This document shows positions 7,649 to 30,186 of a stretch of 36,527 nt of DNA, one piece after another (position 1 is the first letter of the stretch; each line of letters begins with the position of its first letter). The translations under genes were made by a program, and so were the position numbers. Below the pieces are notes generated by a model. It was not told where the DNA came from. It saw only the letters and a program-made list of their open reading frames with translations, and searched no databases. The DNA is from Polyangia bacterium (GTDB lineage Bacteria > Myxococcota_A > Polyangia > Fen-1088). The stretch lies in assembly GCA_036268875.1 (NCBI GenBank), contig DATATI010000069.1, positions 1 through 36,527 of the forward strand. Direction: 5' to 3'.

Positions 7649-7657
7649 CGATGAAGA

Positions 7658-7683: not shown

Positions 7684-7701
7684 GTGGTGCGCCCGGTCAG
7701 G

Positions 7702-8505
7702 TCAGCGGATGTCGAGATCGTCGATGTAGATTTTTCCGACGTAGCTGTTGGTGTCGAAGATCTGGATGTCGATGCTGCTGACCATCATCGTCGCCGCCGC
7801 GGTCGGCACCTTGTAGCTCGTGGTTTGCCAGTCGCTGGTCAACGGTTTGATCGTCGGCGTCAACGTCATGCTGCCGGCGCTGGTGATGAGGGTTACCGCC
7901 ATGTACGTGGTGGGCTTTGGTTCAGGGAGGGCGGAGACGTGGATGGTGAGCATCTTGCCGGACAGGTTCTGCTGGTTGGCGGCGAGATCGATCAGGACTT
8001 CTGCCGTGGTGGTGTTGCCTGATGAGCCGCTGAAGGCAGTGGTGATCTCCAGGGCGTGCTGACCGCAATAGTGATTGGCGGTGCTGATGGTGACGCTCTG
8101 GGCGGCGGCTTGCATGGTGCCGAGGCGCGCGCCGGAGGTTCCGCTTTCGAAGGTGAAGGTGGCCGCCGGGGTTGGGCAGGGGTGGTCGACGCTGGCGTCC
8201 ATCGCATCGGCCATCGGGCTAAGGTCGGCAGGGGCGTCGACCGCCGCGCCGCCGCTGCCGTCTCCGCCCGTGCCTGCGCCGCCGGTGCCGTCACCACCGG
8301 TTCCGGCGCCACCTGTTCCCGTGCTACCGCCGGTGCCGGCAAGGCCGCCGCCGCCGCTTCCGCTGTTGCCGCCGGCACCGGTGGAGGGAGCGGCCATCAT
8401 GCCCCGGTTCGCGCAGGCAGAGGCCAAGCCGACCCAGAAAGAAGCCAGCAACAACCAGCGCGCCAGGCGACGGGACCTTCGTGACAACAAAGAAAAGTTT
8501 TTCAT
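7702..8505 (-). CDS. Putative lipoprotein with Gly-rich linker and beta-sandwich-like domain
   Basis: A 267-residue exported protein of unknown function. The N-terminus has an Arg-rich start, a hydrophobic core and the lipobox LASAC, making C31 the probable lipidated residue. Residues 41-88 form a low-complexity linker of GTGG/AGTGGD-type repeats, common in surface lipoproteins of Polyangia-like bacteria. The C-terminal part (about 108-267) is rich in Ser/Thr beta strands, has two cysteines, and reads like a carbohydrate-binding-module type jelly roll (FTFESGTSG at its start, IDIQIFDTNSYVGKIYIDDLDIR near the end split over the last strands); that fold is inferred from pattern only. It lies between imuB and dnaE2 on the same strand, although nothing in it suggests DNA repair. 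It is 74 bases from imuB, with a stem-loop in the gap. Confidence 0.8.
   Translation of the reverse strand: MKNFSLLSRRSRRLARWLLLASFWVGLASACANRGMMAAPSTGAGGNSGSGGGGLAGTGGSTGTGGAGTGGDGTGGAGTGGDGSGGAAVDAPADLSPMADAMDASVDHPCPTPAATFTFESGTSGARLGTMQAAAQSVTISTANHYCGQHALEITTAFSGSSGNTTTAEVLIDLAANQQNLSGKMLTIHVSALPEPKPTTYMAVTLITSAGSMTLTPTIKPLTSDWQTTSYKVPTAAATMMVSSIDIQIFDTNSYVGKIYIDDLDIR
8242..8385 (-). repeat. Gly/Thr/Ala-rich coding repeat
   Basis: The segment encoding residues 41-88 of the lipoprotein consists of degenerate repeats of a 9- to 15-base unit coding for GTGG, GAGTGG and GDGTGG. It forms an unstructured spacer that would hold the C-terminal domain away from the membrane. Such repeats can change length by slippage. 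Confidence 0.75.
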
Positions 8506-15100: not shown

Positions 15101-15400
15101 GAACAGGCGCTGGTCGGCCATGCCGATGTCGTACAGCTGGACGACGTTGCCATGAATTCGCCGCACCAGGTCCGACGCCTCGGCGCGCAGGGCGGTGACC
15201 AGCTCGGGGGTGCGCGTGGAAGTTTCGGGCAAGACCTTCAGCGCGCAGAAGCGTTCGATCTCCACCGGCCGCAGAGCGGCGAAGACCTCGCCACGCTCGC
15301 CTTCGGCAAGCTGCTTCAACAGCAACAGCTTGCCGAACATGCGCGGCAGCCGACTTTCACGCGTGGCCGCGTTTGCCCCTTTGAGTGTCGCCTCGCCCAT
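12116..15400 (-). CDS. Tandem pseudokinase-kinase membrane protein with TPRs
   Basis: A 1094-residue protein with two kinase-like domains in series. Domain 1 (about 22-285) keeps a Gly-loop-like GERGEVF (34-40) and the lysine of ALK (K55), but the HRD loop reads ALSARS (160-165) and DFG reads HYG (178-180), so the catalytic Asp, Lys, Asn and metal-binding Asp are all absent: a pseudokinase. Domain 2 (about 368-632) is intact: GEGGMGTVY (376-384), K398, HLDVKPDN (491-498), DFG (515-517) and GTPEYIAPE (533-541), a Hanks-type Ser/Thr kinase. A membrane segment spans about 671-694. The C-terminal 400 residues contain Pro/Ala linkers and TPR-like helices, clearest at about 1000-1090. With one membrane span the TPR part should be outside the cytoplasm. 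No paralogous sensor as in the other two kinases. Confidence 0.92.
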   Translation of the reverse strand: MGEATLKGANAATRESRLPRMFGKLLLLKQLAEGERGEVFAALRPVEIERFCALKVLPETSTRTPELVTALRAEASDLVRRIHGNVVQLYDIGMADQRLFFVSELVEGGDLAALIARLKQTQRPLPAELAVYVAMEVAAALQYLRHINDRQSAMAGAPLALSARSILLSTDGEVKVVHYGATLSRAAPRTEIIVPPELATTNNTANNNGATAASDVYLVGDLLWQMMTGARPDPALLAANPAASGDALMRLARSTLQGDPAQRPADCEKLRTALAGILRVLAAPTATPPNTQLKTLVRANFAGALIGDRAELGQLMKTVDPKRELAPPTWRVITLRRPDAGNTTAGRRPKLVTAPVDLAPGKVVPGTRYRIVSKIGEGGMGTVYAAEHVDIERKVALKVLRVDVAPDPETLQLFRQEARAASKIGSAYICDVTDFGEVPDGRVFFAMEYLEGESLGRVLRESTHVSPARTIGILRQVAKALGAAHEKSIVHLDVKPDNIMLIAQSKRTDAVKVVDFGIAGLLNQTAEQEEISGTPEYIAPERAGGHGYDRRSDIYALGVMAYEMLSGKVPFHGKNNIATLTMQVKDLPEPLGHHTAQQVPDALAALVMRMLEKDPAARPQTMAAVEALLCDAQIAAGLTTPWDDLELPAVDDEWRARLERRMPAPGRRARRTVIAAASGIATVAVAVALYLGVIRKPQVIVKEVRVELTNTDEAPAVASALLRADQAARRQRYVRPFDDSALHFIISAEEEASKTGRRSAGALGLRRAYASALTVIGNELLKAGLRDLALPKYKEALLFMPDDPELQRKAELLPEEIRTRERRPTTATTAVPPASSPTDNAKEAATRTFLAATQGHLSEARLALKTLADFDVGGVQRARLSDGLRTRAQAEWNVGHKDAARPLYQLIADLDPQDLDARERANEPPAAGSANPAATAMPAVFVGPPAPTATSVAGAAAKAKKKEAEADPDQPRDPVTSRKAAEIGLAALARGHLGEAEQAFNRAVRADAQNATAVGGLADVAFERAHYTEALDYARRASRLAPRNAKHLVLLGDAYFKLLRYDEATANYQKAHALAPNDQTIKDRIEKAATKLAK

Positions 15401-15618: not shown

Positions 15619-16707
15619 TTACTGGCAGATGCCGTACAGCGTGTCGTTCTTCAGCATGGTGCACGACTGGCCGGTCGGGCAGTCGCCGGTCGAACCGGCC
15701 TTGCAGAGGCGCCGACATTTTTTCGGGTCGGTGCCCATGGTGGTGCAGATGAGTCCGGGGCGGCAGTCGGCGAAGACGGCGCAGGTGTCGCCTTCGTTCT
15801 TCACGCTGCCGGCCGGGACGCAGCGACAGTCGACCTGATCCTGTTCGCCGATCAGCAAGCACCCGAGGCCGGTGGGGCAATTGGTGGTGGCCAGGCCGCG
15901 CGGATCGCAACCGAAGGTGCAGGTCTTGTGGCCGGTGGGGACACCGTTGCAGTCGACTGGCCCCACGCACAAGCTGCCCGCGCCCAGACCAATGCCGGTC
16001 GCCGACGTGCAGTCGCTGTCGGTCTTGCAGAACTTCAGGCAGACCTGAACGTTGCACTGCGCTTCGGTGGTCGAGTAATCGAAGCACTGCGTTCCTTGCG
16101 TGCAGGCGCTGTTGTCGTTCGGGCAGGACTGGCCCGGACCCGACGGGCCGGCTGGCACGCACAGTCCTTGACCGGCCTTGCAGTCGACGAAGCAGGTCTT
16201 GTCGGCGCCGCAGGTGGCAGCGGCCGCCGGATCGCAGCCGGGGAAGGGCGCGACTTCTTGATCGCCGCCATCGCCGACGCCGCCGTCGGTGGGGCAGATC
16301 GGCGCGTTGCTGGTCAAGGTGACGGCGGCGGAGGTCACCGTGTCTTTTTGTACGTTGGCCGTCGTCGAGCCGGTGGCCACGCGGCAGCCGGCGGCATTGC
16401 TGGCGGCCACCGCCAGCGTGACCGGGCCGTCGCGATCATTGCTGAAGCTGACCGACAACGTGACCGGCGGATTGATCAGCGATCCGGCCACGCCGATGGT
16501 CGACGATTTGCCGGGATAAGTCAGCGTGACCGCCGAGCCGGCGCCGGCGCCGGTGACAGCGACCTCGACGGTGTCGACGCGGACGATGGCTTGATCGGCG
16601 GCGGCCAACGTCAGCACGACGAACGACTGATGCTTGGCGCAGCCGGCCGCGCTGAAAATGAGGCCAGCCAGCACCGCTCGGACGCTGGACCGCAGGCTAG
16701 AACGCAC
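15619..16707 (-). CDS. Cys-rich surface lipoprotein
   Basis: A 362-residue lipoprotein: signal peptide with lipobox SAAGC (C23). Residues about 28-135 look like a Ser/Thr/Val-rich beta-sandwich domain (VDTVEVAVTGAGAGSAVTL, then VTLSVSFSNDRDGPVTLAV). From about residue 137 to the end the protein contains many regularly spaced cysteines in EGF- or Dickkopf-like spacing (CGADKTC, CKAGQGLC, CPTGQSC), a pattern frequent in secreted proteins of Myxococcota. The fold would be held by disulfides, so it is extracytoplasmic. Function is unknown. Its ATG lies 11 bases inside the end of the Pro-rich gene, and it is the last gene of the packed block that starts at 25806. Confidence 0.85.
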   Translation of the reverse strand: MRSSLRSSVRAVLAGLIFSAAGCAKHQSFVVLTLAAADQAIVRVDTVEVAVTGAGAGSAVTLTYPGKSSTIGVAGSLINPPVTLSVSFSNDRDGPVTLAVAASNAAGCRVATGSTTANVQKDTVTSAAVTLTSNAPICPTDGGVGDGGDQEVAPFPGCDPAAAATCGADKTCFVDCKAGQGLCVPAGPSGPGQSCPNDNSACTQGTQCFDYSTTEAQCNVQVCLKFCKTDSDCTSATGIGLGAGSLCVGPVDCNGVPTGHKTCTFGCDPRGLATTNCPTGLGCLLIGEQDQVDCRCVPAGSVKNEGDTCAVFADCRPGLICTTMGTDPKKCRRLCKAGSTGDCPTGQSCTMLKNDTLYGICQ

Positions 16708-17182
16708 GCATGTCCCCCAGCGTGGTGTTGGGCGTGTTGGGCCCGGACGACGAACTTGCCAGCAAGATCGCTCCCGCGGTCAGGACGACCACGCCGATGG
16801 TTCCCCAGAACCAGGCCTTTTTGTAGAACGGCTTGTTCGGAGGTGGCGTCGGCGCCGCCTCGAGGGGAACGGCGACCTCTGGCTCAGGAGACGGCGCGTA
16901 GACGGGTGGCGGGGCGACCGGAGGCGCGAAAGAAGGCGCGCCGGGCGGTTGCACGTCAGCGGGTGGCGCCGGCGACAGCGGCACCACGGCGTCACCGTCG
17001 GGCACCGTCGGCGTGCCGGGCGCGGGCAGCGGCGCGGGCGGTTGCGGCGGCGGCGTGGTGCCACTTTGCTGAGCGTGGGCGCTGGCGCCGCCGGCCAGGA
17101 CCAGGCCGGCCAGCGTCAGCATCGCCACGCGCATCCGCAGCGTCGGCAAGCGAAGGGGAGATAAGCGCGGCATCGGCGTCAT
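16697..17182 (-). CDS. Pro-rich exported protein with C-terminal membrane anchor
   Basis: A 161-residue protein if the ATG at 17182 is used; AGG lies ten bases upstream of it. The frame is open to an ATG at 17224, and ATGs at 17173 and 17134 are also possible. A signal peptide (MRVAMLTLAGLVLAGGASAHA) is followed by about 75 residues dominated by Pro, Ala and Val, then FYKKAWFWG, a membrane segment of about 20 residues, a short Ser/Gly stretch and the tail NTTLGDMRAF. In my experience the aromatic-YKKxWFW segment, membrane helix and TTLGxM-type tail recur at the C-termini of myxobacterial TPR and PEGA proteins; here the module is detached from any TPR. It overlaps the start of the Cys-rich lipoprotein gene by 11 bases. 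Function is unknown. Confidence 0.75.
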   Translation of the reverse strand: MTPMPRLSPLRLPTLRMRVAMLTLAGLVLAGGASAHAQQSGTTPPPQPPAPLPAPGTPTVPDGDAVVPLSPAPPADVQPPGAPSFAPPVAPPPVYAPSPEPEVAVPLEAAPTPPPNKPFYKKAWFWGTIGVVVLTAGAILLASSSSGPNTPNTTLGDMRAF

Positions 17183-17250
17183 TGTGCTTTCGCCTGAGAC
17201 GCGCGTCCAGTCCCGGCCATTCACAGCCCGCCGGGGCGAAGCAGCGAAAG

Positions 17251-19314
17251 CTAATCTGTCTCGGGACCGGAGCGCAGATCGCGACGCTGCCCGGCCGGAA
17301 AAAGCCGGTCCATCAGTTCGGCCATGTCCCGGCGGTTGCCGATGTTGGGACCGAGTTCACGTTTGAATTCCTCGGCGCTCTGGTAGCGCTGGGCCGGATC
17401 GTTGGCCAGCGCGCGTTGCAAGATCGCGGCGGCGGCGGCGGGCAGCTCTTCGATCTGGTTGAACTGGGAGGTGGCCGGTCCCACCGCCGCGCGCATCAGG
17501 CGATTGATGGTGGTCTCGCCGCCGTAAAGAAACTGGCCGGTCAGGCAGTAGTACAAGACCAACCCGGCCGAAAAAATGTCGCTGCGCACATCGACCGATT
17601 CTCCGCGCGCCTGCTCGGGCGACATGAAGCAGGCGTTGCCCTTCACCATGCCCACCTCGGTGCGGCTGACCCGGCGTTCGGCCTTGGCGATCCCGAAGTC
17701 GGTCAACTTCACCTCGCCGCGATAGGAGATGAGGATGTTCCCCGGCGCGACGTCGCGATGAACGATGTCCAGCGGCTTGCCGTCCTTGTCCGTCTGCGAG
17801 TGGGCGAAGGCCAGCGCCTCCAGCACGTCGTGAACGACGTAAAACGAGATGGGAACGGACAGCGGGGTGCCCACCAGCTCGAGGTGCTGTTGCAGGATCT
17901 TTCCCAGGTCGCGCCCGTGAATGTATTCGAGCGCGAGAAAATATTCTTCGCCGGCCTTTCCGAAATCGAACACCGGGACGATGTTCGAATGGACCAGCCC
18001 CGCTTGCAGGCGCGCTTCGTCGATGAATTGATTGACCACGTCCCGCTGGCGAGAAAGATGGGCGTGCATGCGTTTGACCACGAAGTGGCGCACGAAATCC
18101 TCCGCTCCATACGCGGCGGCAAAAAATATCTCGGCCATTCCGCCTTCGCCGATGCGTTCAATCAAGCGATAGCGGCCCATCTCGGTCAGGCCGCCCGTGG
18201 CGTCCGGCGCCGGCGCGACGGCGACCGCCGAGGCCGAAGGCGAAGCCGAGACCGCGCGTCCGGTGATGTCGACGGGTCGAGTGGTGGCCAGCTGGCTGGG
18301 CAATAGCTGGGTGCCCGAGACCGGTCGTGAACCCGCCGGGCGCGGCACGGTGGGCACCGGCACCGGCGCCTTGGGGTTCATTCCGCTCGGCGGCGTTGGG
18401 ATCTCATCGCCTCGCGCCGACGGCGATGGCTGGGCCGCACGCCGGCGGGGCGCCCGAACCACCACCAGCGCGAACACCGCTAACGCCGCACCCACCAAGG
18501 CGAGCAGGAGACCGCCCCATTCCCGCGCCGGTGGCGGCACCGGCGGCGAGACGCCCAGCAGCCACTGCCGCTCACCGAGCGGCCAGGCCACGCCGATGCG
18601 ACCTTCGGCCAGCATCATCGGGCCGTTTCCTTCGTGCCCCACCAGCGATTCAACCAGCCCGCGCGTCGCCGGCGGTCCGGTCACACCGACCAGACTTTTC
18701 CCGTCGGACAGACCGACGAGATCTCCCGCCTGGCCGGCCACGCGAGCCAAGATCGCCTGATCGAGTGGCGCGCCCAGCAAGACCACCGGCGCGTCAGCGG
18801 TCGCTGCGGCGGCGTTGTTGTCTTTGCCGGCCGGCAGCCGCGCCGCCGCGCCCAGGAAGGCCCGCCCGTCGGCTGCCCGGACCACGCCCGCCGCCGTGCC
18901 CGCGGCCCGCGCCTGCTTGAGCATGTCGATCGCCGTTGCCTCTGCCGGGCGCGCCCCGAGGGCCGCCACCACCCCGCGGTCGGTGATGACGGCCGACAAG
19001 GCATAGCCGGCGCGGTAGGGTATCCACCACTCTTCGTTTTCCAGCAGATCTTGAAAAGTCGTGCGATCGGCGCCCATCTTCCATGCCGAGCGCAGCTCGG
19101 GCAGCGCGGCCGCCGCGCTCGCCGCCGGCACCAACCCGGCCGCCGCGGTGTCCAGCGCTTGCTCGACGCGATCCCGGACGGCGGCGCCGGCCTTGATCAG
19201 ATCCGCGGGCGCCGGGCGCGAGGATTCAAACTGCCACAGGCCGACAGCGGCCATCACCAGCCCGGCCGCCAGCAGGGTGTATTTCAGCGTCGCGCGCCGA
19301 CCATCAGTTCTCAT
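17251..19314 (-). CDS. Transmembrane Ser/Thr protein kinase with extracytoplasmic sensor (kinase 1)
   Basis: A 687-residue receptor kinase with reversed topology relative to PASTA kinases: sensor first. Membrane segment 1 (about 11-28) and segment 2 (about 267-286) bracket an extracytoplasmic domain that contains EEWWIPYR (94-101) and looks like a Cache-type fold (inference). A Pro-rich cytoplasmic linker (about 295-375) leads to a Hanks kinase: GEGGMAEIFF (389-398), K414, HRDVAPGN (519-526), DFG (539-541) and SPE (565-567). The usual Lys of the HRDxK loop is Ala, as Ser or Ala often is in myxobacterial kinases. The ATG at 19314 lies 11 bases inside the cupredoxin gene, so translation is coupled. 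The sensor is homologous to that of the kinase at 28153-30186. Likely role: relaying an envelope redox or metal signal (inference from neighbours). Confidence 0.92.
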   Translation of the reverse strand: MRTDGRRATLKYTLLAAGLVMAAVGLWQFESSRPAPADLIKAGAAVRDRVEQALDTAAAGLVPAASAAAALPELRSAWKMGADRTTFQDLLENEEWWIPYRAGYALSAVITDRGVVAALGARPAEATAIDMLKQARAAGTAAGVVRAADGRAFLGAAARLPAGKDNNAAAATADAPVVLLGAPLDQAILARVAGQAGDLVGLSDGKSLVGVTGPPATRGLVESLVGHEGNGPMMLAEGRIGVAWPLGERQWLLGVSPPVPPPAREWGGLLLALVGAALAVFALVVVRAPRRRAAQPSPSARGDEIPTPPSGMNPKAPVPVPTVPRPAGSRPVSGTQLLPSQLATTRPVDITGRAVSASPSASAVAVAPAPDATGGLTEMGRYRLIERIGEGGMAEIFFAAAYGAEDFVRHFVVKRMHAHLSRQRDVVNQFIDEARLQAGLVHSNIVPVFDFGKAGEEYFLALEYIHGRDLGKILQQHLELVGTPLSVPISFYVVHDVLEALAFAHSQTDKDGKPLDIVHRDVAPGNILISYRGEVKLTDFGIAKAERRVSRTEVGMVKGNACFMSPEQARGESVDVRSDIFSAGLVLYYCLTGQFLYGGETTINRLMRAAVGPATSQFNQIEELPAAAAAILQRALANDPAQRYQSAEEFKRELGPNIGNRRDMAELMDRLFPAGQRRDLRSGPETD

Positions 19315-20209
19315 ACGAACCGTAGGCGCCTCCCTGTTTGTTCAAATGGGGACCTGTCGATCGCACCTCTGTCGACAAGGTCACGCTGGCGCCGTCCGCG
19401 GTGACGTCAACCTGCTGAGAGGCCGGCTTTAAATCAGGTCCCCAGACCACCACCCGGCGGTTGCCGATCGGGATGGCCGGCAGGTGAAAGGTGCCGTCGG
19501 GGCGCACGCGGGTCCAGTGCGTGTTCGGCACCACCAGCACGTCGGCGCGCATTTTTGAATGAATGTTGCAGAAGATCTCGACATGACCTGGCTTCAGCAG
19601 CGTCACCGGCTTGGGCACCTGTCCCGCCTTCAGCGTGCCCACGTCGAACGCATCGCCCGGGGTGTTGGAGAAAACATTGTGAAAGACGGTGTCCTGGTTG
19701 GGAAACAACACATGCGATCCGACCGGAACCACCGCCACCATGGGGACGAACTGGCGATTGGCCTGCTTGATCTCGATGGTGGGCGGATGCGCCGGCAGGC
19801 CGTGCGAACCGTCGAGATAAACATAGGCTTCATTGGGCAGACCGCCGCCCACCTGCACGCGGCCGGTGATCGCCGCGGTGCTGGCCGCCGGGGTCGCTGC
19901 CGTCGGCGCGCCGCGGGACCCAGGCGATCGCGGCAGCGGTCCCGGCGCAACCGCGCCGGGGACCAGCGATGGTGCCGCCGTCGGCGCCGGTCCCCCGCTG
20001 TTGAGATAACGCAGCAGCGACTCCTGCATCTGCATCAGCTGCAAAATCAGCTGCCGCTGTTCACGCTGATCTTGCTGGAGGCGGGCAATCTCGCTCTCCA
20101 GCCGGGTGATATCGCCGGCGACGGGGGGCGCATCCGCCGCCCGGGCCGCCGCCGAACCGAGCAGCAGCGTCAATCCCCCGGCCAGCAGCGTGCGTGAACG
20201 ATGGCGCAT
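19304..20209 (-). CDS. Periplasmic type-1 copper (cupredoxin-like) protein
   Basis: A 301-residue exported protein. The ATG at 20209 is preferred over the TTG at 20221 because GAGGAG lies just upstream and overlaps the stop of the barrel gene. A signal peptide (1-24) is followed by a coiled coil (about 33-68), a Pro/Ala linker (72-112) and a cupredoxin-like domain (about 113-228). The type-1 copper ligands are visible: H177 in VFHNVFS and C214, H217, M220 in FCNIHSKM. The last 70 residues (RVRPDGTFHLPAIPIGNRR onward) resemble a carboxypeptidase-regulatory-like beta domain. Such proteins are often annotated as methylamine utilization proteins. Expected role: electron transfer or copper handling in the periplasm, possibly with the di-haem protein of the same operon. 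No amine dehydrogenase genes are present. Confidence 0.88.
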   Translation of the reverse strand: MRHRSRTLLAGGLTLLLGSAAARAADAPPVAGDITRLESEIARLQQDQREQRQLILQLMQMQESLLRYLNSGGPAPTAAPSLVPGAVAPGPLPRSPGSRGAPTAATPAASTAAITGRVQVGGGLPNEAYVYLDGSHGLPAHPPTIEIKQANRQFVPMVAVVPVGSHVLFPNQDTVFHNVFSNTPGDAFDVGTLKAGQVPKPVTLLKPGHVEIFCNIHSKMRADVLVVPNTHWTRVRPDGTFHLPAIPIGNRRVVVWGPDLKPASQQVDVTADGASVTLSTEVRSTGPHLNKQGGAYGSYEN

Positions 20210-20217
20210 CGATCTCC

Positions 20218-21522
20218 TCAATAGCTTAGAACCAGGCTGCTGGTGAAGACGTCATCCGGGATGCTTGGCACGTTGCCGTACTCACCGTTGCGAAGATACT
20301 CCGCTTTCAGCGTCGCCCAAGTATCCAGCACCAGACGAACCCCGACCGTACCGCGCCAGTTTCGGCTGACGTACGCCCGCTGTGTCGGCAAGGTGATGTC
20401 GGCGCTGCGGTAGCCGAGGCTGCCCAGCAAGCCCCACGACGGCGTCAGCATGGCGTGGACCTCGACATATCCGCCGCCGTGCAGGGCCAGCGAGTAAACG
20501 TTCTGCGTCGGATCGCCGGCCGCGGCGCCTTTCAACCATTGCGCCAGCACGTCGACCGGGCCGGCGCGGGCCAGGAGGTCGAAGCCATAGAACCACATCG
20601 GGTGTTGCACGCTGGTGGTGCGATCCTGCGGGCCGTAGCTGCCGGAGGCGCCCAGCTCCAGCGAAAACGGCAGCGGCAGGCGCACGGACAGTCGTCCGCT
20701 GACGGTCTTACCGGCGTTGCTGTCGGTCTCGTCGTAAAAGAAGAACTGCTCGGTGGTGTTCGAACCGTTGGTGGCGGCGGCGGCGATGGTCAGCCAGTCG
20801 TCTTCGCCGAACTTGCTGCGCACCTTGACGCCCAGGGCGGGGCCGGTGGTGTAACGGGCGATCAAGGACGGCGTGATGCCAAACCGCTGGTCGGATTTGC
20901 GCTGGCGGTATTCGATGCCCAGGACCGAATCAATTTTCCCGACGAAGATCGACGTGCGCTGCGATTGCGTGGGCAGCCATTCCAGCTGGGCGAGATCGAC
21001 GTCCAGCATGTCGCCCAGCGAAAAATTGCTGCCCGTGCGCGGGGTGAAGTTCACGCTGGTGGTGATGATGGCGCTGGGCACAGGGGTGGCGCGCAGGCGC
21101 AGGTTGATCTCGTTGACGATGAACCCGGGCGCGCCGCGCGAATGAATGCCGTCGTATCGATCGACGCCCGGCGGATTTCCCAGATCGGCGACCTCCCCGC
21201 GCGAATTGATCGCCGGGGCCAGGATGTCGCCAGGGAAGACCCAGGTGTAGCCGGCGTATCCCGGATAGGTGTGCATGACATCTTGAACGAAGCCGCTGCC
21301 GTTTCCTTCCGTGGCGAAGAAGCCAAAGTCGACATAGCCGCTGACCGTGACCGTCTGCCGCCGGTGGGTGGCCAGCTCTTCGTTCTGACGGATCTGTTCG
21401 GCCAGGGGATCAGAGTCTTCCAGCGACGAATCGTCGGGGGGGTCGACCTGCGCCTGGCCGGCCCGGGCGGCGGCGACCAGGACCAGCGCCAGACCGGCGG
21501 CGGCCTGCCGGGGCAACTTCAA
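20218..21522 (-). CDS. Outer-membrane beta-barrel (porin-like) protein
   Basis: A 434-residue protein with a signal peptide (to about residue 24, ARAGQA/QVD), a short acidic coiled stretch (about 28-50) and then alternating hydrophobic strands starting with TVTVSGYVDFGFF. The chain ends in LVLSY, a terminal aromatic strand as in outer-membrane barrels. Strands such as TSIFVGKIDSVLGIEYR and RGTVGVRLVLDTWATLKAEYL are typical of porins that face a periplasmic partner. The start is TTG (21522), with GGAG seven bases upstream, and overlaps the stop of the di-haem gene by four bases (TTGA). It could provide a path for substrate or house an outer-membrane electron carrier; the sequence alone does not decide. 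Confidence 0.82.
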   Translation of the reverse strand: MKLPRQAAAGLALVLVAAARAGQAQVDPPDDSSLEDSDPLAEQIRQNEELATHRRQTVTVSGYVDFGFFATEGNGSGFVQDVMHTYPGYAGYTWVFPGDILAPAINSRGEVADLGNPPGVDRYDGIHSRGAPGFIVNEINLRLRATPVPSAIITTSVNFTPRTGSNFSLGDMLDVDLAQLEWLPTQSQRTSIFVGKIDSVLGIEYRQRKSDQRFGITPSLIARYTTGPALGVKVRSKFGEDDWLTIAAAATNGSNTTEQFFFYDETDSNAGKTVSGRLSVRLPLPFSLELGASGSYGPQDRTTSVQHPMWFYGFDLLARAGPVDVLAQWLKGAAAGDPTQNVYSLALHGGGYVEVHAMLTPSWGLLGSLGYRSADITLPTQRAYVSRNWRGTVGVRLVLDTWATLKAEYLRNGEYGNVPSIPDDVFTSSLVLSY

Positions 21523-23351
21523 AGACCGTCTCCGTTGGCGTCGATCGTCGCGTCAGCGCCGGCATCGGTGGGGCAGGCGAGCGTCGCGCTGGCTGGCGCG
21601 GCACCGTTCAAACAGGTCGGGGCATAAGTGTCGGCCGGCGGACCGATCAGCACCGACGGTCCCGGTCGGCCGGTCAACGTTCCCAGGAAGGCCACCAGAT
21701 CGGTGCGATCCTGATCGGACAGGTTCAAAGGCGCCAGTTCCGACGTGCCCCAATCCCGGCTGACGTCCGACAGCGCTTGATCGTAGTGCCAGACCACATC
21801 GGCCAGCGTGGCGTACGATCCGTCATGCATGTACGGGCCGGTCATGGCCACGTCGCGCAGGCTGGGTGTCCGCCACGCGCCCAGCCAGCGCGCCGGTGGC
21901 TTGGCGCCGCCCGCGTCGTCGTAGGTCGCCGGACCTTCGTCGGCGCACCCGTGGAGATCGCCGATCGTCGCGCCGCTGTCGCAGTCGGCTTTGTGAGCCA
22001 AATAGAATTCGTTGTCGAGGCAGGTGCAGCGGCGAAAGATGGTGGTCGCCGGGATCGACGGCGCGCTGGTGGACGGGCACTGGCGAAACGTGGTGGTTGC
22101 CGACGGCGACGTGGCGCTGCTGGCGGCGTGCAGCTTCTGCATCCCGGCGAAGGCGCCGACCGGCAGGCAAGCGCCGCCGGTGGCAACGCCCGCGGGCGCG
22201 CCGGTCGCGGTGCTGTCGACCTGGGCGTCGCCCGCGCCGCCGTCGGCGATCGCGTCGGGGAGGCGGCAATCGCAGCCCGGAGTCTCGCACGCCGGCACCG
22301 TCGGCACGTGATTGCCGGCCTGGCCGATGCCGATGTCGTGAAACTGGCGGTCGGAAAACAGGCTGCTGTTGTGGCAGTTCACGCACCCGGCGTGGCCAAT
22401 GAAAAGTTTGAGGCCGCGTTTCTCCGACGGATTCAAAACATGGGACGCCGGACCGGCGTTCACGAAGGCGTCGAACCGCGAACGATCGCTGGTCAGGAAC
22501 CATTCGTAGGCGCCGATCGCCTTGGCGACGTTGGCGTGCACGCGCGCGGCCAGGGTTTGCGGCAGCTCGGGATGGCACAGGCGCGCATCGTCGTAGGCCG
22601 TGCGGAAGGCGGCAGTCTTGGCCGTCGATGCGCTGGGGACGGCCATGTACGAACCCATCTGTGACACGTCCGCGTTCAACGACGTCAGGTCGCCGAACAC
22701 CGCCTGGTAATCGTCGTCGCCGAGGTAGCATTGCGCGACCAGGTACAGCGTCTTTTCTCGGCGGCTGTTCATGGAGACCGAGCTTTCCATGACCTGCGCC
22801 GCTTGCGACCAAAGGGCATCCGCCCGGCCATTCCAGTAAAACACCGGGAAGAAACGGGCGACGTTCAGCGTCTGCTGGGCGTTGACGTCGTACCAGCCGG
22901 CCCCGTTCGACACGTTGGACGGCTGCGAGGTGAAATCCGAGCCGTAATGAGCGGGATCGTGACAAGTGGCGCACGAGATCCCAAGCTCGGGCGTGGTCGC
23001 TCCCGGCAGACGGGGAGCGGGCGCCGGGCAGCTGTAGCTGTCTTTCGGGTCGGCGCCGTCGCCCGACAACCGCGGATCGTAGTAGAGGCGCCAACCCAGC
23101 CGGACAATCGCCGGCAGGTCGGCGGGATCGGTGGCGCTTTGGACCGCGTCCCACTGGGTGGGATCGAGAAACTCGTTGGACGGATCAGCGGGCGGTGGCG
23201 AGGCCGCGACGTTGGCCAGCGACGAGACCAAGGTCCATTCGTCGCCCGAGAAAAAACAGTCGTCGCCGCTGGCGCAGTGGCCGCCCCAGCCTTTGCCGCA
23301 GCCGCCGAGCAGACCAATCGCCAGGACCGCCGCTGGAACACGCCACCCCAT
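21519..23351 (-). CDS. Di-haem cytochrome c peroxidase / MauG-family lipoprotein
   Basis: A 610-residue lipoprotein (ATG 23351; a TTG at 23393 is a weaker alternative). The lipobox LGGC puts the lipidated cysteine at 18. Two c-type haem sites are present, CATCH (127-131) and CVNCH (323-327), with the family motifs FHDIGIG, WRTPSLRDV and TGPYMHDGS; the Met of YMHDG is a usual distal ligand region in this family. Family members reduce hydrogen peroxide or oxidise protein residues (MauG). It is much longer than the usual 330-400 residues: a Cys-rich insertion of about 120 residues (about 355-475, nine cysteines) sits between the second haem and the WRTPSL motif, and a tail of about 30 residues follows the last family helix. 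It heads the chain of overlapping genes for barrel, copper protein and kinase. Confidence 0.93.
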   Translation of the reverse strand: MGWRVPAAVLAIGLLGGCGKGWGGHCASGDDCFFSGDEWTLVSSLANVAASPPPADPSNEFLDPTQWDAVQSATDPADLPAIVRLGWRLYYDPRLSGDGADPKDSYSCPAPAPRLPGATTPELGISCATCHDPAHYGSDFTSQPSNVSNGAGWYDVNAQQTLNVARFFPVFYWNGRADALWSQAAQVMESSVSMNSRREKTLYLVAQCYLGDDDYQAVFGDLTSLNADVSQMGSYMAVPSASTAKTAAFRTAYDDARLCHPELPQTLAARVHANVAKAIGAYEWFLTSDRSRFDAFVNAGPASHVLNPSEKRGLKLFIGHAGCVNCHNSSLFSDRQFHDIGIGQAGNHVPTVPACETPGCDCRLPDAIADGGAGDAQVDSTATGAPAGVATGGACLPVGAFAGMQKLHAASSATSPSATTTFRQCPSTSAPSIPATTIFRRCTCLDNEFYLAHKADCDSGATIGDLHGCADEGPATYDDAGGAKPPARWLGAWRTPSLRDVAMTGPYMHDGSYATLADVVWHYDQALSDVSRDWGTSELAPLNLSDQDRTDLVAFLGTLTGRPGPSVLIGPPADTYAPTCLNGAAPASATLACPTDAGADATIDANGDGL

Positions 23352-23412: not shown

Positions 23413-25806
23413 CTATCTGCTGCCGGGCACCGGCGGTCCGCTGCGGCGGAATTGCTCGACCCAGGTCAGACGTTCGGCGGTGTCCTGATCGCGCAGGCGC
23501 TCGGCCTCGGTCTCGGCGTCGGCCAGCAGGCGGCGCAGGGCGCCCCGCGCGCTCAAGAAATCGCCGATGCGGTAGCCGGCCTCGACGATCATGTGGCGGC
23601 ACTCGCGCAGAAAATCCGGCGGCAGCGGCGGGGCGGTGGAGGCGCCGCTTGGGATGTCGTCCTCCTCGCAAGCGGCGCGCAGGTAGGGCAGAGCATGGGT
23701 GGCATCGCGTCCCAGAAGTTGTCGGCCCACCAGGTACGGACCCAGGCGATCGTCGGGGTAAAGACGCGCGTAGTCCGTCAGCAGGAAAAATCCCAGCACC
23801 GCGTCGGGCGCCTGATCCAGATCGTCGCCGTACAAGACGCGGCCCAGGGTCTGGCGCGCCTGCAGCGTGCGCAGGGCGCGCAGGCGAGCCTGGGCCGTGC
23901 GCCGCTCACCCTCGTCGGTGGACAGGGCGATGACTCGCTTCTCCGATGCTTCGGCGTTGGCGAAGTCCCCCGCGTGGTAGTGCAGCGTCGCCGCCAGCGA
24001 CGAGGCCCGCGCCCGCAGCGGATCGGTCAGCTCGGCGTTGGTGGCCAGCTGGTTGAACGTCTGCTGGGCCCGCCCGCGTTCGCCGGCCATCGCCTCGGCC
24101 CAGCCGAGCTCGAGGCGAAAGGTCGGCTCGTCGGGATCGTCGCGGCAGGTCTCTTCCAGCATGCGCACCGCGCGGGCGGGCGCCGTGCGCAGCAAGCCGC
24201 GCGCGTCGGCCACCCGGGCCGCCAGCTCGCGCGCGCAGATCTTCTTGAAGATGGCCGGCCGGCGAAACAGCTCCTTGGCCCGCGCCCGATCGCGCGTCGA
24301 CAGCGGCTGCCGCGCCAGGAACTGCCGCCACTCGTCTTCCAGGTTGGCCAGCGGCGTTCGGTAGACGTCGCGGAAATTTCCCGCCGAATGATAGAGGCGA
24401 CGCAGTTTCTCGGCCCCGCGTGTCTGCAGCAGGAACGTGCAGAACGATCCGGCCAGCACGTACGCCCGCGGTCCGGACACCGCGCTGAACCCGGCGCCCA
24501 CCACCGTCGCAAGCGGCGGGGCGCGCCCGTCGGCGACGATGGCCTGCGCCTGCTGATGGATGGTGGACGGCCCGTCGGGATCGCCGGCGTCGGCCGCTTC
24601 GGCGATGCCTTCGATGAGGCCGCTCGCGATGCGCGGGTAGGGGATCGGTCCTTTCCAGTGCCAGCCGAGGGCGATGCCCAGCAGCGGATCGCCGAACACG
24701 CCCGCGAAGACGTGCGCCATCTCGTGGCGGATGCGCGAGGAGGGAAAGCGTTCGGCCTGCACGAAGATCTCGCGGGTCCACGGCTTGGCGTACAGCGTGT
24801 GGCCGGCGCCGACGGTGTCCTTCTTCAGCTCGGCCGACGGGAATTCGTAGACGGTGATGGGACCGGCCGGCTCGACGCCCAGCGTGTGGCGAAGCTGGTC
24901 GTAACGAAACTCCAGATCCTCGGCGGCCAGGCCCAGGTCGACCTTGGTCTTGCCCGCCGTCGATGAATAACGCAGCACGAAGTGCTGCGTGCGCATCTCT
25001 TGATCCAGCACGCGGAGGACGTCGGCGTGGCGGGTGTGAAAGCCCAGGACGCCGCGCTCACAAAACAAGATCGCCGACGCCACCAGTAAAACGGACGCGC
25101 CGGCGACCAGCTCGCGCGGCCACCGACGCGGGTTCGCGCCCCGACCGAGAGTCGCCGCGGCGGTGGTCACGGCGGCGGCGATCCACACCAGGTTGGTCAG
25201 GCGAAACCACAACAGACGCTCGGGCGGCCGGATCGCTTCGTCGTAGATCGGCCCCGGGAAATAGCCCCCGAACGGATCGAAGGCGAAGACCGCCGGATCG
25301 ACGTAGGCGCGCACCAGGGCCCAGGCGATCGACAGCGCGGGCAGCGCGAACGCCACCAGCCGCCCGCGGCGTGGGAAGATCATGGCTGCCAGCGCGCCCG
25401 CCGGCGCGGCGTACAGCATGGTCCCCACCGGCAGCAGGGCATAAAAAGCCAGGCCAGCGCCGACGCTGCAGTTGGCAACGCGAACGGCGTTGGCCAGCGA
25501 CAGCAGCAGCGGCAGCAGCAGCAACGTCAACCCCGTCAGGGCGGCGCGGACGGCGAGGCGCCCCACCGGCGGCGGCTGGCCGGGCGACCAGGCGCCCGCT
25601 GCTCTCGCCCGCGCCACCACGCCGTGGCCGACGTCCACGCCGGCCAGCGCGGCGCCGAAACCGAGGGCGAACGAAAAGTCGAAGCCCAGCAGATCAAACA
25701 GCGGCACGAAGTCCAGGGCCGCCGCCGCCACCGCCAAAAGCCCGCCCCAGATCAGCGCCCGCCGCCCCAGGCGCGCGTTGACGGCGCCGAGGGCGCGCCT
25801 TACCAT
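23413..25806 (-). CDS. Polytopic membrane protein with gluzincin-like peptidase domain and TPRs
   Basis: A 797-residue protein (ATG 25806; the open frame runs further upstream only as antisense of the PilZ gene). The N-terminal 250 residues contain about seven hydrophobic segments. A soluble part begins near 262 with a peptidase-MA-like domain: RHEMAH (HEMAH 361-365) supplies two zinc ligands and the catalytic Glu, and LIEGIAEAAD about 35 residues later gives a plausible third ligand (E399). The C-terminal 300 residues are helical TPR-like repeats (CRDDPDEPTFRLELGWAEAMAG, split here over two helices). I infer a membrane-anchored zinc metalloprotease whose substrate is unknown. It starts 12 bases from the divergent PilZ gene and ends 61 bases before the di-haem gene, so it may lead the same operon. 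Confidence 0.83.
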   Translation of the reverse strand: MVRRALGAVNARLGRRALIWGGLLAVAAAALDFVPLFDLLGFDFSFALGFGAALAGVDVGHGVVARARAAGAWSPGQPPPVGRLAVRAALTGLTLLLLPLLLSLANAVRVANCSVGAGLAFYALLPVGTMLYAAPAGALAAMIFPRRGRLVAFALPALSIAWALVRAYVDPAVFAFDPFGGYFPGPIYDEAIRPPERLLWFRLTNLVWIAAAVTTAAATLGRGANPRRWPRELVAGASVLLVASAILFCERGVLGFHTRHADVLRVLDQEMRTQHFVLRYSSTAGKTKVDLGLAAEDLEFRYDQLRHTLGVEPAGPITVYEFPSAELKKDTVGAGHTLYAKPWTREIFVQAERFPSSRIRHEMAHVFAGVFGDPLLGIALGWHWKGPIPYPRIASGLIEGIAEAADAGDPDGPSTIHQQAQAIVADGRAPPLATVVGAGFSAVSGPRAYVLAGSFCTFLLQTRGAEKLRRLYHSAGNFRDVYRTPLANLEDEWRQFLARQPLSTRDRARAKELFRRPAIFKKICARELAARVADARGLLRTAPARAVRMLEETCRDDPDEPTFRLELGWAEAMAGERGRAQQTFNQLATNAELTDPLRARASSLAATLHYHAGDFANAEASEKRVIALSTDEGERRTAQARLRALRTLQARQTLGRVLYGDDLDQAPDAVLGFFLLTDYARLYPDDRLGPYLVGRQLLGRDATHALPYLRAACEEDDIPSGASTAPPLPPDFLRECRHMIVEAGYRIGDFLSARGALRRLLADAETEAERLRDQDTAERLTWVEQFRRSGPPVPGSR

Positions 25807-25818
25807 CGCGGCACGCCC

Positions 25819-26268
25819 ATGTCCGACGAGAACGATCGGCGAAACCAGAACCGAGCGCCCATCGAATTGAAGGTCGAGTACAAGCGGCTGAACACCTTCT
25901 TCTACGATTACACGAAGAACATCTCGAAGGGTGGCACGTTCATCAAGACGGACAAGCCGCTGCCGATCGGGACGGTGTTCCTGTTCAAGCTGCTGGTCCC
26001 CGCCCGCACCGAGCCCCTGCCGCTGCGAGGCGAGGTCCGCTGGGTGGTGCGCGAGGGCGAGCCGCTGCCGCCCGAGGCGCCGCCCGGCCACGATCAGGGC
26101 ATGGGCATCCGGTTCGTCTATGACAGCGCCGAACAGCAGCGAGGTCTCGAACGGGTGGTCGAGAAGATGATGGTCGACAGCCTGGGCCAGCTCATCTATT
26201 CGCGGCTGGTGGGCGCGGCCAGTGATCCCCGACGCGGCCCGATCAAGGACGAGAAGGGCCGGTCCTAG
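25819..26268 (+). CDS. PilZ-domain protein (TIGR02266-like)
   Basis: A 149-residue protein from the ATG at 25819; upstream frame extension is antisense to the protease gene and is low-complexity. It has the pattern of the small PilZ family abundant in Myxococcota: RAPIELKVEYKRLNTFF, then YTKNISKGGTFIKT, IGTVFLFKLLVP, and GEVRWVV. The canonical RxxxR of c-di-GMP-binding PilZ domains is not clearly present (NRAPIELKVEYKR is the nearest), while the DxSxxG position reads NISKGG. Binding of c-di-GMP is therefore uncertain. Its 3' end overlaps the convergent glycosyltransferase gene by 26 bases, and its start is 12 bases from the divergent protease gene, so its promoter must lie within the protease coding sequence. 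Confidence 0.88.
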   Translation: MSDENDRRNQNRAPIELKVEYKRLNTFFYDYTKNISKGGTFIKTDKPLPIGTVFLFKLLVPARTEPLPLRGEVRWVVREGEPLPPEAPPGHDQGMGIRFVYDSAEQQRGLERVVEKMMVDSLGQLIYSRLVGAASDPRRGPIKDEKGRS

Positions 26269-28156
26269 CGGCGGCGCGTTTCAGCTCGTCCAGGGCGGCG
26301 CGGGCGGCGTCGACGTTGCCAAGGCCGATCTCGGCGCGGGCCAGCTGCGCCAGCACCGCCGGGCGATCGTCGGCGCCCGCGGCCAGTGCGTGCAACAGGT
26401 GCGCGCGCGCGGTGTGGAATTTTTTCTGTTCAAGGTAGCCACGCCCGATCAAGAAGTTCGTCAGCCACAACTCGGGATCGGACTTGAGGTGCTGTTCCAG
26501 CAGGCCGATGGCTTTGTCTGGCTGCCCAGCGCCCAGGGCCAGCAGCGCCAGCCGGGCCACCGGCAAGGCGAAGCTGCTGTTTTGCAGGGCGGCCTCTTGA
26601 TAGTGCGCGACCGCTTCGGGCAGGCGCCCGGCCGCTTCGGCCAGCTCGCCCAGGCGCACCTGAGCGGCGCCGAACGACGGCGCCAGCGCGCGGCACTGCT
26701 GGAACATCTGCGTGGCTTCGTCGACGGCGCCGGCGGCGTGCAGGGCGTTGCCGATCAAATAGGCGGCGTTGCACGACTGCGGGTTGCGGCGCAGCGCCTC
26801 GCGCAGCGTTGCCAGCGCCACCGCCGGCTCGCTCTGCACGCCGCCGAGAAACAACCACGGCACATAAAACGCGGGTGCCGCGCGCCGGGCTTCGGCAAAG
26901 CAGCGCCGGGCCTCGGCGGGGCGGCCGCTCTGCTGGTGGCGGAGGCCGTCGTATAGCAGCCGCTCGACCGCGCCGTCGCCGGCGGCGCGATAGTGCGCGT
27001 CGGGAAAGGTCCAGCTTCCTTCGGGGAGCGGACGCGGCGTCGCTGATCGTGCTGTCGTTCCGGCGGCTTTTTCACTCCTGCCGGGCGCCGGATATCCGAG
27101 CTGCGACGCCACCGATAGATAAAAGCCCAGACGATCGGCGGCGTGCGGCCGTTCCAAGCGCGTCGCCGCCACCCGCTGGCGCGCGCGGGTGGCCATTGCC
27201 CGCCGCTCCGTCGGATGCGACGCCGCCCAGTCCAGCGCGGCTTGCAATTGCGGCAGATCGCCGAACAGCAGACCGTTGTCGCCCGGCGCAATCGTCTGTC
27301 GGTACGGCTCCAGATCCGCGGCGATCGCCAGCACGCCGTGCGCCGCGTATTCCAGGTATTTGACGTCCGAACGGCAGCGGTTGAACGCCGTCGGCAAAAG
27401 CGGCGCCAGCCCGACGTCGAGGCCGCGCAAGAAATCGTAGTAGGCGTCGATGCTGCCGCCGGGAGTGAACGAGAACCGCTCCGCCGGCAGCCAGGCGAAC
27501 AGCTCGCGGAAGGACGGATCGCCCATGATGGCCAGCGTGGCGCGCGGATGGCGGCCGAAGAAACTTTGCAGCGCCGGCACCATCCAGCGCAGATCGTCGC
27601 GGTGGCCGAGCGAGCCGCCCCAGCCGACGGTGACGGCGCCGTCGTCGGCGCTGGCATCACCGGCGGGTGCCGGACGCTCGGCCGGCATTTCCCACAGGTG
27701 ATTGCCGAACACCGCCAGACGTGGGTTCAGCTCCCCGAAGCGGCGTTGCAGCTCGGCGACGGTGAACTGCACAAAATCCGCCTGCCGGGCCAGCTGTGAA
27801 GACAGGCTGCGCGAGATGAGGTTCACCGCCAGATACGCCGTCGGGTTCCACGGCTGCGGCGCCAGGAAGTGATCGTTGATCTCGTATCCGGTCAGCTTGC
27901 GCCGCCGGCGGCGCGCCTCGATCACCGGTAGAAAATCGGCGTCGACGACGTCGCACAAGATCAAGATGTCGGCGTCCAGCAGCAGGCCGGTGGTCGACAG
28001 CTCCGGCGTCAGCAGCGATCCGCTGAGCACGCTGACGTTCGGCAGCTCGCCGAGCGCGCGGCACGGCTGCAGCGTGCGGTAGATGTGATCGCCCTGGCGG
28101 CCGCGGTTGGGCGACTCGAGGTGAACGATGACCAGCGAATCGCCGGTCGCGCTCAC
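26243..28156 (-). CDS. Glycosyltransferase (GT4-like) fused to TPRs
   Basis: A 637-residue cytoplasmic protein. The N-terminal 350 residues resemble family-4 glycosyltransferases: GRQGDHIYR near the start, VGWGGSLGHRDDL opening the second Rossmann domain, DVGLAPLLPTAFNRCRSDVKYLEYAAHGV (the sugar-nucleotide-binding region, described here by its two halves) and DNGLLFGD. Residues about 385-630 are TPR repeats (LRRNPQSCNAAYLIGNALHAAG-type units). Such fusions act on surface polysaccharide or protein glycosylation. The start is GTG and overlaps the stop of kinase 2 by four bases (GTGA), implying coupled translation. It is the last gene of the ABC/kinase operon. Confidence 0.85.
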   Translation of the reverse strand: MSATGDSLVIVHLESPNRGRQGDHIYRTLQPCRALGELPNVSVLSGSLLTPELSTTGLLLDADILILCDVVDADFLPVIEARRRRRKLTGYEINDHFLAPQPWNPTAYLAVNLISRSLSSQLARQADFVQFTVAELQRRFGELNPRLAVFGNHLWEMPAERPAPAGDASADDGAVTVGWGGSLGHRDDLRWMVPALQSFFGRHPRATLAIMGDPSFRELFAWLPAERFSFTPGGSIDAYYDFLRGLDVGLAPLLPTAFNRCRSDVKYLEYAAHGVLAIAADLEPYRQTIAPGDNGLLFGDLPQLQAALDWAASHPTERRAMATRARQRVAATRLERPHAADRLGFYLSVASQLGYPAPGRSEKAAGTTARSATPRPLPEGSWTFPDAHYRAAGDGAVERLLYDGLRHQQSGRPAEARRCFAEARRAAPAFYVPWLFLGGVQSEPAVALATLREALRRNPQSCNAAYLIGNALHAAGAVDEATQMFQQCRALAPSFGAAQVRLGELAEAAGRLPEAVAHYQEAALQNSSFALPVARLALLALGAGQPDKAIGLLEQHLKSDPELWLTNFLIGRGYLEQKKFHTARAHLLHALAAGADDRPAVLAQLARAEIGLGNVDAARAALDELKRAAARTGPSRP

Positions 28157-30186
28157 GACCGTCGGCGGGCCAGCTCTTGGCTGGCGCTGCCGGTCGCGCC
28201 GATTCCCTTGTTGGTGGGAAGGGTCATGGCGAAGCGGGTTTCTTCTTGCTGAAAATCGGCGGTGAACAGGACGCGCATCATCTGAAGCGTGGCGCTGGCC
28301 CCGCCGGTGGCGTGCGGGTGGACGGCGGCGCCGAACTCGGCGGCGCTTTGATAGCGCTGGGCCGGATCGACCTGCAGCGCCTTGGCCACGAGCTCCGCGC
28401 AGGGGCCGGGCAGGGCGGCGATGCGGGCCAGCTCGTCGGGACCGGGGCCGGTGGCGGCCTTGACCAGCAGCTCATACGTGGTGTTGCCGCGATAAAGGAT
28501 CTCGCCGGTCAGGCAATAGAACATCACCAGGCCAAGGGAAAACAGATCGGCGCGGGCATCGGTGTCGGTGCCGCGCGCCTGCTCGGGGGCCATGAAGCTG
28601 ACGTTGCCTTTCACGACGCCGCTCTGGGTCTTGGTGACGCGGCCCTCGGCTTTGACGATGCCGAAATCGAACAGCTTGACCTCGCCGCGCGCCGACACCA
28701 GCACGTTGCTGGGCGAGACGTCGCGGTGGACGATGCCCAGCGGCTTGCCGTTGTCGCCGGTCTTGCCGTGGGCATATTCCAGCGCCTTCAAGGTCTCATG
28801 GACAACGTACATCAGCACCGGCACCGGGATGGCGCGCCCTTCGCGCTCGATCACCCGGGCGGTCAGGCGGCTGAGGTCGCGGCCAAGGATGTACTCCTGG
28901 GCCAAGAAGAACTCGTCGCCCACTTTGCCAAAGTCGAACACCGGCACGATGTTCGAGTGCACCAGCGTCGATCCCAGATTGGCCTCGTCGATGAATTGCG
29001 CGACGACGTTGGGATCGCGGGCCAGCTCGGCGCGCAGGCGTTTCACCACGAAGGTGCGGCGAAAACCCTCGGCGCCGAAGGTGACCGCCGTGTAAACCTC
29101 GGCCATGCCGCCTTCGCCCAGGCGATCCAGCAGGCGATAGCGGCCGAACATCACGCTGTCGGCGGCGCCGGCAACGGCGGTGGGTGGTGGCGTGCTCTGG
29201 CGCAGCTCGGTGGCGGCCGCGCCAAAGGGGACCGGCACGGTGACGTGCGCGGCGGGTGGCAGCACCGGCGTGCTCAGCGGCGACTGGCGCGCGTCGGTGG
29301 TCCCCGGCGCCACCGTCGGCGGCGAGCGCCGAAACGCAAAGAAAAGAGCCAGGATCGATCCCAGCCCGGCGATGCCCCACACCACGCCCTTGTTGGTGGT
29401 GGCCGAAGCGGCCGTGTCTTCCACGGCGGCGCCGGCGCCGGCGTACGTCCACAGCCACAGGTTCGGCGCCAGCTGGCTGACCGCCGCTGCCCAGGTAGCC
29501 TCGGCCGGTTCGAACAGCGGGCCGGCTCGTTCCTGGCCGACGGCGCGCCGGAGCAGCGCTCGCTCGGCCTCCGCGCCGGCTTCGATCAGCGGGCTGCTGC
29601 CGTCGCTGAGCAAGACCGCCCCGTGGGCGCGATCGGCCAGCAGCTGCATCGACGCGGCGTTGATCGGCCTGGCCAGGACCAGCACCGCCGCCTCGCGGCG
29701 CTCGGGGTTGGTGACGGTGACGGCGGCGGCGGCGCACGGCCAGCCCTTGCCTATCACCAGCTCGGCCACCGCCTCGCCGGTCTGTCGGGCGCGGCGAATC
29801 AAGGCGTCGGCGACCAGCTGCGAGCCGGCCATGCCTTCCACCACGTCCAGCTTTTCGCCATGAAACGAGACCGCATAGACCTTGAACTGCGCGCGATAGG
29901 GCGCCCACCATTCTTCGGTTCGGAAGGCGTCGCTCAACGTCGCGGCGTCGACGTTCCCACGGAGAGCGGCCTCAAGCCGCGGGTTCGACGCCGCGTTGTG
30001 GGCCTGCAGCTTCAGCTCGGCGATGTGATTGGCCAGCGCCTCGTTCGACAGCAAGCCCGCCGTCTCGGCCGCGCGCGTGCTTTCGCGCTTGAGCCCGTGC
30101 AGGCGGTTGGCGTCGATCGCGCGGGCCGCCGCGGCCGCCGCGCCCAGCGCCGCCGCCGCCACGATGATCGCCACCAGCCACTTCAC
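28153..30186 (-). CDS. Transmembrane Ser/Thr protein kinase with extracytoplasmic sensor (kinase 2)
   Basis: A 677-residue receptor kinase, paralogous to the one at 17251-19314. Membrane segment 1 is at about 3-23 and segment 2 at about 267-285. The sensor between them has EEWWAPYR (91-98) and a later stretch AVLVLARPI...VLLSDGSS that aligns with kinase 1. A Pro-rich linker (about 288-345) precedes the kinase: GEGGMAEVY (357-365), K382, HRDVSPSN (487-494, Ser in place of the usual Lys), DFG (507-509) and APE (533-535). All other catalytic residues are intact. The start is GTG at 30186 with GGAGG 13 bases upstream. It is 31 bases after the DUF4340 gene and overlaps the glycosyltransferase gene, so it belongs to the ABC operon. 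Confidence 0.92.
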   Translation of the reverse strand: MKWLVAIIVAAAALGAAAAAARAIDANRLHGLKRESTRAAETAGLLSNEALANHIAELKLQAHNAASNPRLEAALRGNVDAATLSDAFRTEEWWAPYRAQFKVYAVSFHGEKLDVVEGMAGSQLVADALIRRARQTGEAVAELVIGKGWPCAAAAVTVTNPERREAAVLVLARPINAASMQLLADRAHGAVLLSDGSSPLIEAGAEAERALLRRAVGQERAGPLFEPAEATWAAAVSQLAPNLWLWTYAGAGAAVEDTAASATTNKGVVWGIAGLGSILALFFAFRRSPPTVAPGTTDARQSPLSTPVLPPAAHVTVPVPFGAAATELRQSTPPPTAVAGAADSVMFGRYRLLDRLGEGGMAEVYTAVTFGAEGFRRTFVVKRLRAELARDPNVVAQFIDEANLGSTLVHSNIVPVFDFGKVGDEFFLAQEYILGRDLSRLTARVIEREGRAIPVPVLMYVVHETLKALEYAHGKTGDNGKPLGIVHRDVSPSNVLVSARGEVKLFDFGIVKAEGRVTKTQSGVVKGNVSFMAPEQARGTDTDARADLFSLGLVMFYCLTGEILYRGNTTYELLVKAATGPGPDELARIAALPGPCAELVAKALQVDPAQRYQSAAEFGAAVHPHATGGASATLQMMRVLFTADFQQEETRFAMTLPTNKGIGATGSASQELARRRS

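Follow-up and report, generated by a model that had tools for sequence, protein, structure and literature searches.

The window, that is, the whole 36,527-nucleotide stretch of DNA analysed here, contains four minus-strand genes at 17251-23351 that run head to tail in the order MauG-type protein, barrel, cupredoxin and kinase. A second kinase of the same build is encoded in the same stretch. With genes called by a purpose-written codon-model script, the features are as follows:

21519..23351, minus strand: di-haem lipoprotein of the MauG/CCP family (ATG start, 610 aa; lipobox LGGC, two CxxCH)
20218..21522, minus strand: porin-like outer-membrane beta-barrel (TTG start, 434 aa; AlphaFold model and PDB match to OprP)
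19304..20209, minus strand: periplasmic cupredoxin (ATG start, 301 aa; signal peptide, type-1 copper site H177/C214/H217/M220)
17251..19314, minus strand: receptor Ser/Thr kinase (687 aa; N-terminal periplasmic sensor, C-terminal kinase domain)
28153..30186, minus strand: second receptor kinase of the same build (41% identical to 17251..19314 over most of its length)

The tight spacing described in the original prediction is borne out: the MauG-type and barrel genes overlap by 4 nt, with TTGA common to the stop and the start, the barrel stop is followed after an 8-nt gap containing GGAG by the cupredoxin ATG, and the kinase ATG lies 11 nt inside the cupredoxin gene. The two CxxCH sites, the four copper ligands and the intact kinase that it had also named were all confirmed residue by residue. 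The region 17251-23351 is presumably transcribed as one mRNA. Rfam and tRNA scans of the window gave no matches.

The four gene products

The 21519-23351 protein matches the Pfam family CCP_MauG (PF03150) with 81.4 bits against a cut-off of 25.6, and its CxxCH sites are at residues 127 and 323. Its Tyr523 aligns with Tyr294 of MauG, the distal haem ligand (Tyr instead of Met), and the position recurs as HY in close relatives. Since the scores for MauG proper (TIGR03791, 119.8 bits) and MbnH (TIGR04039, 99 bits) fall far below the respective equivalog cut-offs of 443.85 and 362.85, we regard the protein as a relative of these enzymes and do not assign it their substrates. MauA and MauB searches gave no match in the source genome, and the same two family searches matched no control genome either. 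A lipobox is also present in many homologues, and the lipoprotein is probably located on the outer membrane, next to the barrel.

The barrel was modelled with AlphaFold at a pLDDT of 82, and the nearest PDB fold to this model is OprP (Foldseek E 3.7e-13, TM 0.57), which suggests a 16-strand porin type (OprP/OprO-like); a sequence match in the PDB was not found. Sharing 30-67% identity with 21 aligned homologues, it is better conserved than any other extracytoplasmic part.

Blue-copper proteins are familiar as carriers of electrons. In the cupredoxin of the window, the His, Cys, His, Met set H177, C214, H217 and M220 is invariant in 13 aligned sequences, and C214 is the only Cys of the protein. 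As the Pfam score for Cupredoxin_1 (PF13473) is 21.7, under the cut-off of 27, its identity rests on these ligands and on a profile match, which is nearest to the copper domains of nitrite reductase (NirK), amicyanin and plastocyanin. The signal peptide is accompanied by an N-terminal stretch that looks coiled-coil-like on inspection of the sequence and by a CarboxypepD_reg-like C-terminal stretch.

The fourth protein is an intact Hanks-type Ser/Thr kinase (Pkinase, 120.4 bits against a Pfam cut-off of 31.7) with a GEGGM loop, K414, HRD519-521, DFG539 and SPE565. It was proposed earlier as a link between periplasm and cytoplasm, and its architecture agrees with this: a first transmembrane segment (about 4-31) precedes a CHASE4/double-Cache-like periplasmic sensor (about 32-264), a second transmembrane segment (266-287) and the cytoplasmic kinase domain (382-648). 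It shares the intact Hanks-type domain with PknB-type Ser/Thr kinases but differs from them in that the sensor is N-terminal and periplasmic, the kinase is C-terminal and PASTA domains are missing.

The AlphaFold model of the sensor (pLDDT 90.8) resembles most closely the CHASE4 domain of IsmP from P. aeruginosa (8wct; Z 14.7, rmsd 5.7, 193 residues, 21% identity), followed by LuxQ (Z 12.8) and then a broad set of Cache receptors. This predicted likeness comes from fold comparison alone, as a sequence profile of the sensors found no relative among solved structures including CHASE4. The window kinase likewise has no Pfam CHASE4/dCache match, and dCache_3 was found in 5 of 37 proteins encoded directly downstream of cupredoxins.

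Recurrence of the genes in relatives and across bacteria

The original prediction would have failed if the four genes were neighbours in no related genome; instead, their order repeats in relatives and the genes travel together. The source genome (G000) has a second full cassette (L031, on G000:C21), the same four-gene order is found in G003 (L035), G007 (L043) and G011 (L044), the barrels of the latter two loci having been found by tblastn, and in G001 the order holds as far as the contig end (L039). At one further locus each of G001 (L038) and G007 (L042), the MauG gene is a neighbour but divergently oriented, and the 4-nt overlap between MauG and barrel genes occurs again in L031, L035 and L039. 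The cassettes, which for this family were sampled from draft assemblies only, are of two types, within each of which the parts keep together. Compared with the window, those of the window-like type are 64-69% identical in the barrel, 50-54% in the cupredoxin and 71-76% in the kinase domain, and L031-like cassettes 56-58%, 42-44% and 54-58%, respectively. Because the flanking genes differ between cassettes, we take these four genes as the unit.

Sensors of the window type were found 22 times in seven genomes of the same family. About 13 of them, including all of the closest ones, are encoded beside a cupredoxin; about 9 are not, which counts against the explanation we favour below. The latter comprise a small group (L185-L188) and the orthologues of the 28153-30186 kinase (L181-L184, L189), which have a separate neighbourhood that is itself conserved; one orthologue lies one gene away from a barrel-cupredoxin pair (L192, G006). 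In the window the 28153-30186 kinase has no adjoining copper protein, and it is related to, but probably not part of, the four-gene unit. The sensor is thus tied mainly, not exclusively, to cupredoxins.

For a broader view, the cupredoxin alignment was scanned against 84,980 species genomes, from which we used the best 80 of 541 confirmed loci, not a random sample. By record title, these best 80 include Myxococcota, Acidobacteria, Eisenbacteria, Planctomycetota, Armatimonadetes and Gemmatimonadota, as well as Verrucomicrobia/Opitutae, Calditrichaeota, Omnitrophota, Schekmanbacteria and Lindowbacteria. Scan loci minus duplicates, together with family and plasmid loci, gave 94 cupredoxin genes with a downstream gene from about ten phylum-level groups. 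A membrane signalling protein is encoded directly downstream, meaning by the next same-strand gene with one five-CxxCH cytochrome allowed between, in 61 of these 94 cases (65%) versus 35 of 609 control genes drawn from the same loci (5.7%; p~1e-38), the domain seeds for the count of 61 also being taken from these loci. The outputs are Ser/Thr kinase (15), HD-GYP (13), histidine kinase (11), SpoIIE (7), cyclase (5) and GGDEF/EAL (2), the remaining 8 being sensors cut by a contig end or lacking an assigned output. A Pfam scan made independently on 37 proteins encoded immediately downstream recovered the same classes (HATPase 13, HD-GYP 11, Pkinase 7, cyclase 5, GGDEF 1; HAMP in 19), with SpoIIE found separately.

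Additionally, the distances among cupredoxins and among their sensors are correlated (Mantel r=0.805 over 52 pairs, reached in 0 of 2000 permutations), a value that still includes shared species descent. At the acidobacterial loci, the cupredoxins are 50-58% identical and the sensors recognisably related, and the output switches between histidine kinase and HD-GYP. A barrel lies directly upstream of the cupredoxin in many lineages; by a strict outer-membrane-protein rule this was seen for 25 of 91 cupredoxins versus 23 of 677 control genes, the former being a minimum, as the rule misses several clear homologues of the barrel.

The haem partner differs by lineage, being MauG-type in Myxococcota and a secreted globin in Proteobacteria, and SpoIIE cassettes contain an additional five-CxxCH cytochrome. 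A cassette of barrel, cupredoxin and SpoIIE is present in the cultured Polyangium fumosum DSM 14668 (L114). On plasmids of Caballeronia, Comamonas and Novosphingobium, an EAL-domain protein is encoded after the cupredoxin, which is mostly annotated as 'methylamine utilization protein'. The Caballeronia and Novosphingobium plasmids additionally have genes for a DUF3034 protein and a truncated haemoglobin beside that of the cupredoxin; the truncated haemoglobin that was examined (L154) has a signal peptide. The occurrence of copper/MauG gene pairs next to GGDEF/EAL genes, which the original prediction named, therefore holds for the c-di-GMP pairing, which is real on proteobacterial plasmids (EAL/GGDEF) and in Acidobacteria (HD-GYP), but not for the haem protein, which on the plasmids is the secreted truncated globin and not MauG. 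Its contrast between c-di-GMP output elsewhere and a kinase here was too narrow: both exist, but the output types number at least six. As the haem partner changes with lineage, the constant core is the cupredoxin and the receptor.

No description of the cupredoxin-receptor pairing was found in the open-licence literature searched; the copper papers PMC8478169 and PMC10141476 deal with different sets of genes.

A possible envelope-spanning sensory unit

Gene order gives good support to the view that cupredoxin and receptor function as a pair. Beyond this, the explanation we favour, with moderate confidence, is that the products of the four genes make up a single sensory unit spanning the envelope, in which the cupredoxin is the periplasmic input of the receptor and the MauG-type protein and the barrel set its state. 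In essence this agrees with the original prediction, which had the kinase reporting the state of a periplasmic redox or copper pathway, but the window is a single instance within a far wider pattern. The cupredoxin would dock on the CHASE4-like domain of the kinase, and its copper or redox state would switch the cytoplasmic kinase. The MauG-type lipoprotein may exchange electrons with the cupredoxin, in one direction or the other, and so set this state, with peroxide or another oxidant as the likely trigger and the barrel perhaps letting the substrate in, and the output domain would be interchangeable between lineages. Against this explanation count the 33 of 94 cupredoxin genes that have no signalling gene directly downstream by the criteria used, and the search for cupredoxin-sensor fusion genes, which found none.

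LuxP, a periplasmic protein, is the known partner of the receptor LuxQ, and our best reading is that the cupredoxin may act for the kinase as LuxP does for LuxQ. In both cases a CHASE4/double-PAS periplasmic receptor domain is encoded beside a soluble periplasmic protein, a pairing known here from the genes, and LuxQ is among the best fold matches of the sensor. However, the partner here is a blue-copper protein whereas LuxP has a sugar-binding-protein fold, and the present set has at least six output types together with an outer-membrane barrel and a haem protein. A receptor with a periplasmic partner is thus an already known type, and what is new lies in the pairing: a redox-active partner is unusual, and the choice of outputs is unusually wide.

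Alternatively, the receptor could bind metal or haem itself and tune the cell to metal supply, with the cupredoxin, barrel and haem protein serving copper or haem handling and the cupredoxin being at most a copper donor; we consider this rather unlikely. The solved structures closest in fold are CHASE4 domains of P. aeruginosa, for which binding of ferric iron (IsmP type; PMC10904736) or of copper and haem (PA14 homologues; PMC13277305) has been reported. These c-di-GMP receptors, IsmP (PA2072) and PA0847, share the fold predicted here, but they have a GGDEF-EAL output, the available text of these sources names no cupredoxin partner for them, and their metal-binding residues were not found conserved in our sensors, which also show no sequence match to CHASE4 structures. 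Because the window sensor lacks Cys altogether and its only His is not conserved in the aligned relatives, a protein partner is favoured over direct copper ligation, which we rank lower. Further, the partner has a copper site of the electron-carrier type, and the pairing is not with known metal exporters.

Less probable still is that the first three genes form a redox enzyme module, either a peroxidase or a MauG/MbnH-like system for oxidative maturation of the cupredoxin or the barrel, and that the signal of the receptor is an unrelated small ligand, bound in a Cache-like pocket, with regulation merely being shared. MauG and MbnH do modify partner proteins, and Tyr523 matches the MauG haem ligand. 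Cache-like domains also usually bind small molecules, and the fold matches of the sensor include amino-acid and organic-acid receptors. Nevertheless, in lineages other than Myxococcota the pair of cupredoxin and receptor is retained although MauG is missing, which indicates that the receptor goes with the cupredoxin and not with the enzyme. Among known systems, the mau operon (MauG and amicyanin) and MbnH/MbnP resemble the present set in that a di-haem MauG-family enzyme is encoded with a copper protein, amicyanin being among the nearest cupredoxins; unlike them, the set here includes a receptor, and its haem protein scores well under the MauG and MbnH cut-offs. Coincidental adjacency in a gene-dense stretch, where the flanking genes are likewise minus-strand and closely spaced, is refuted by the repeated order in relatives and the pairing of 65% versus 5.7%.

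More tentatively, and in our judgement somewhat short of an even chance, the envelope-spanning unit may represent a widespread class of co-receptors, in which the signal is carried by a blue-copper protein that serves as a subunit of one-component membrane receptors and, via barrel and haem protein, informs whichever output the lineage has attached about the flow of electrons or the redox state of copper at the outer membrane. If true in many phyla, this would be a general route from redox or copper events in the envelope to phosphorylation or second-messenger signals, and the many proteins that at present carry the label 'methylamine utilization protein' or are called hypothetical would acquire a function. 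The four-gene unit would also offer a way to learn what myxobacterial receptor kinases sense, as a signal is known for few of them.

Genes flanking the four-gene set

23413-26091 (-), flanking gene, 61 nt upstream of the four-gene set
16697-17224 (-), flanking gene on the downstream side, gap 26 nt

Given the shared strand and these gaps, the transcript of the four-gene set may extend beyond the four genes, but neither neighbour is kept beside the set in relatives.

Further kinase genes of the window

28153-30186 (-), second receptor kinase
12116-15400 (-), 1094-aa kinase-like protein

The second receptor kinase is built like the kinase of the four-gene set, with 41% identity between the two across most of the protein. 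Its neighbourhood is kept in relatives (genes at 26243, 30218, 31249 and 33126), and in the same-family genome G006 its orthologue lies one gene away from a barrel-cupredoxin pair.

On sequence inspection, the 1094-aa protein resembles a tandem of pseudokinase and kinase: its N-terminal kinase-like part has no HRD motif, the second kinase domain reads HLD, a transmembrane helix lies near residue 671 and the C-terminus is TPR-like.

Variant cupredoxin loci

Split receptors adjoin the cupredoxin at three loci (L041, the same locus as L077; L045; L078). There the Ser/Thr kinase is a protein of its own, with a transmembrane helix at its C-terminus, and is followed by a sensor protein with two transmembrane helices and without an output domain. 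In the SpoIIE-phosphatase cassettes (L050, L051, L059, L101, L104, L107 and L120), an additional multi-CxxCH cytochrome adjoins the cupredoxin, and after several of these cassettes comes either another SpoIIE protein or a Ser/Thr kinase.

3509-7836, locus L154 on a Caballeronia plasmid: DUF3034 barrel-like protein, truncated haemoglobin, cupredoxin and EAL protein

The truncated haemoglobin of this row carries a signal peptide; secretion of a truncated globin is unusual.
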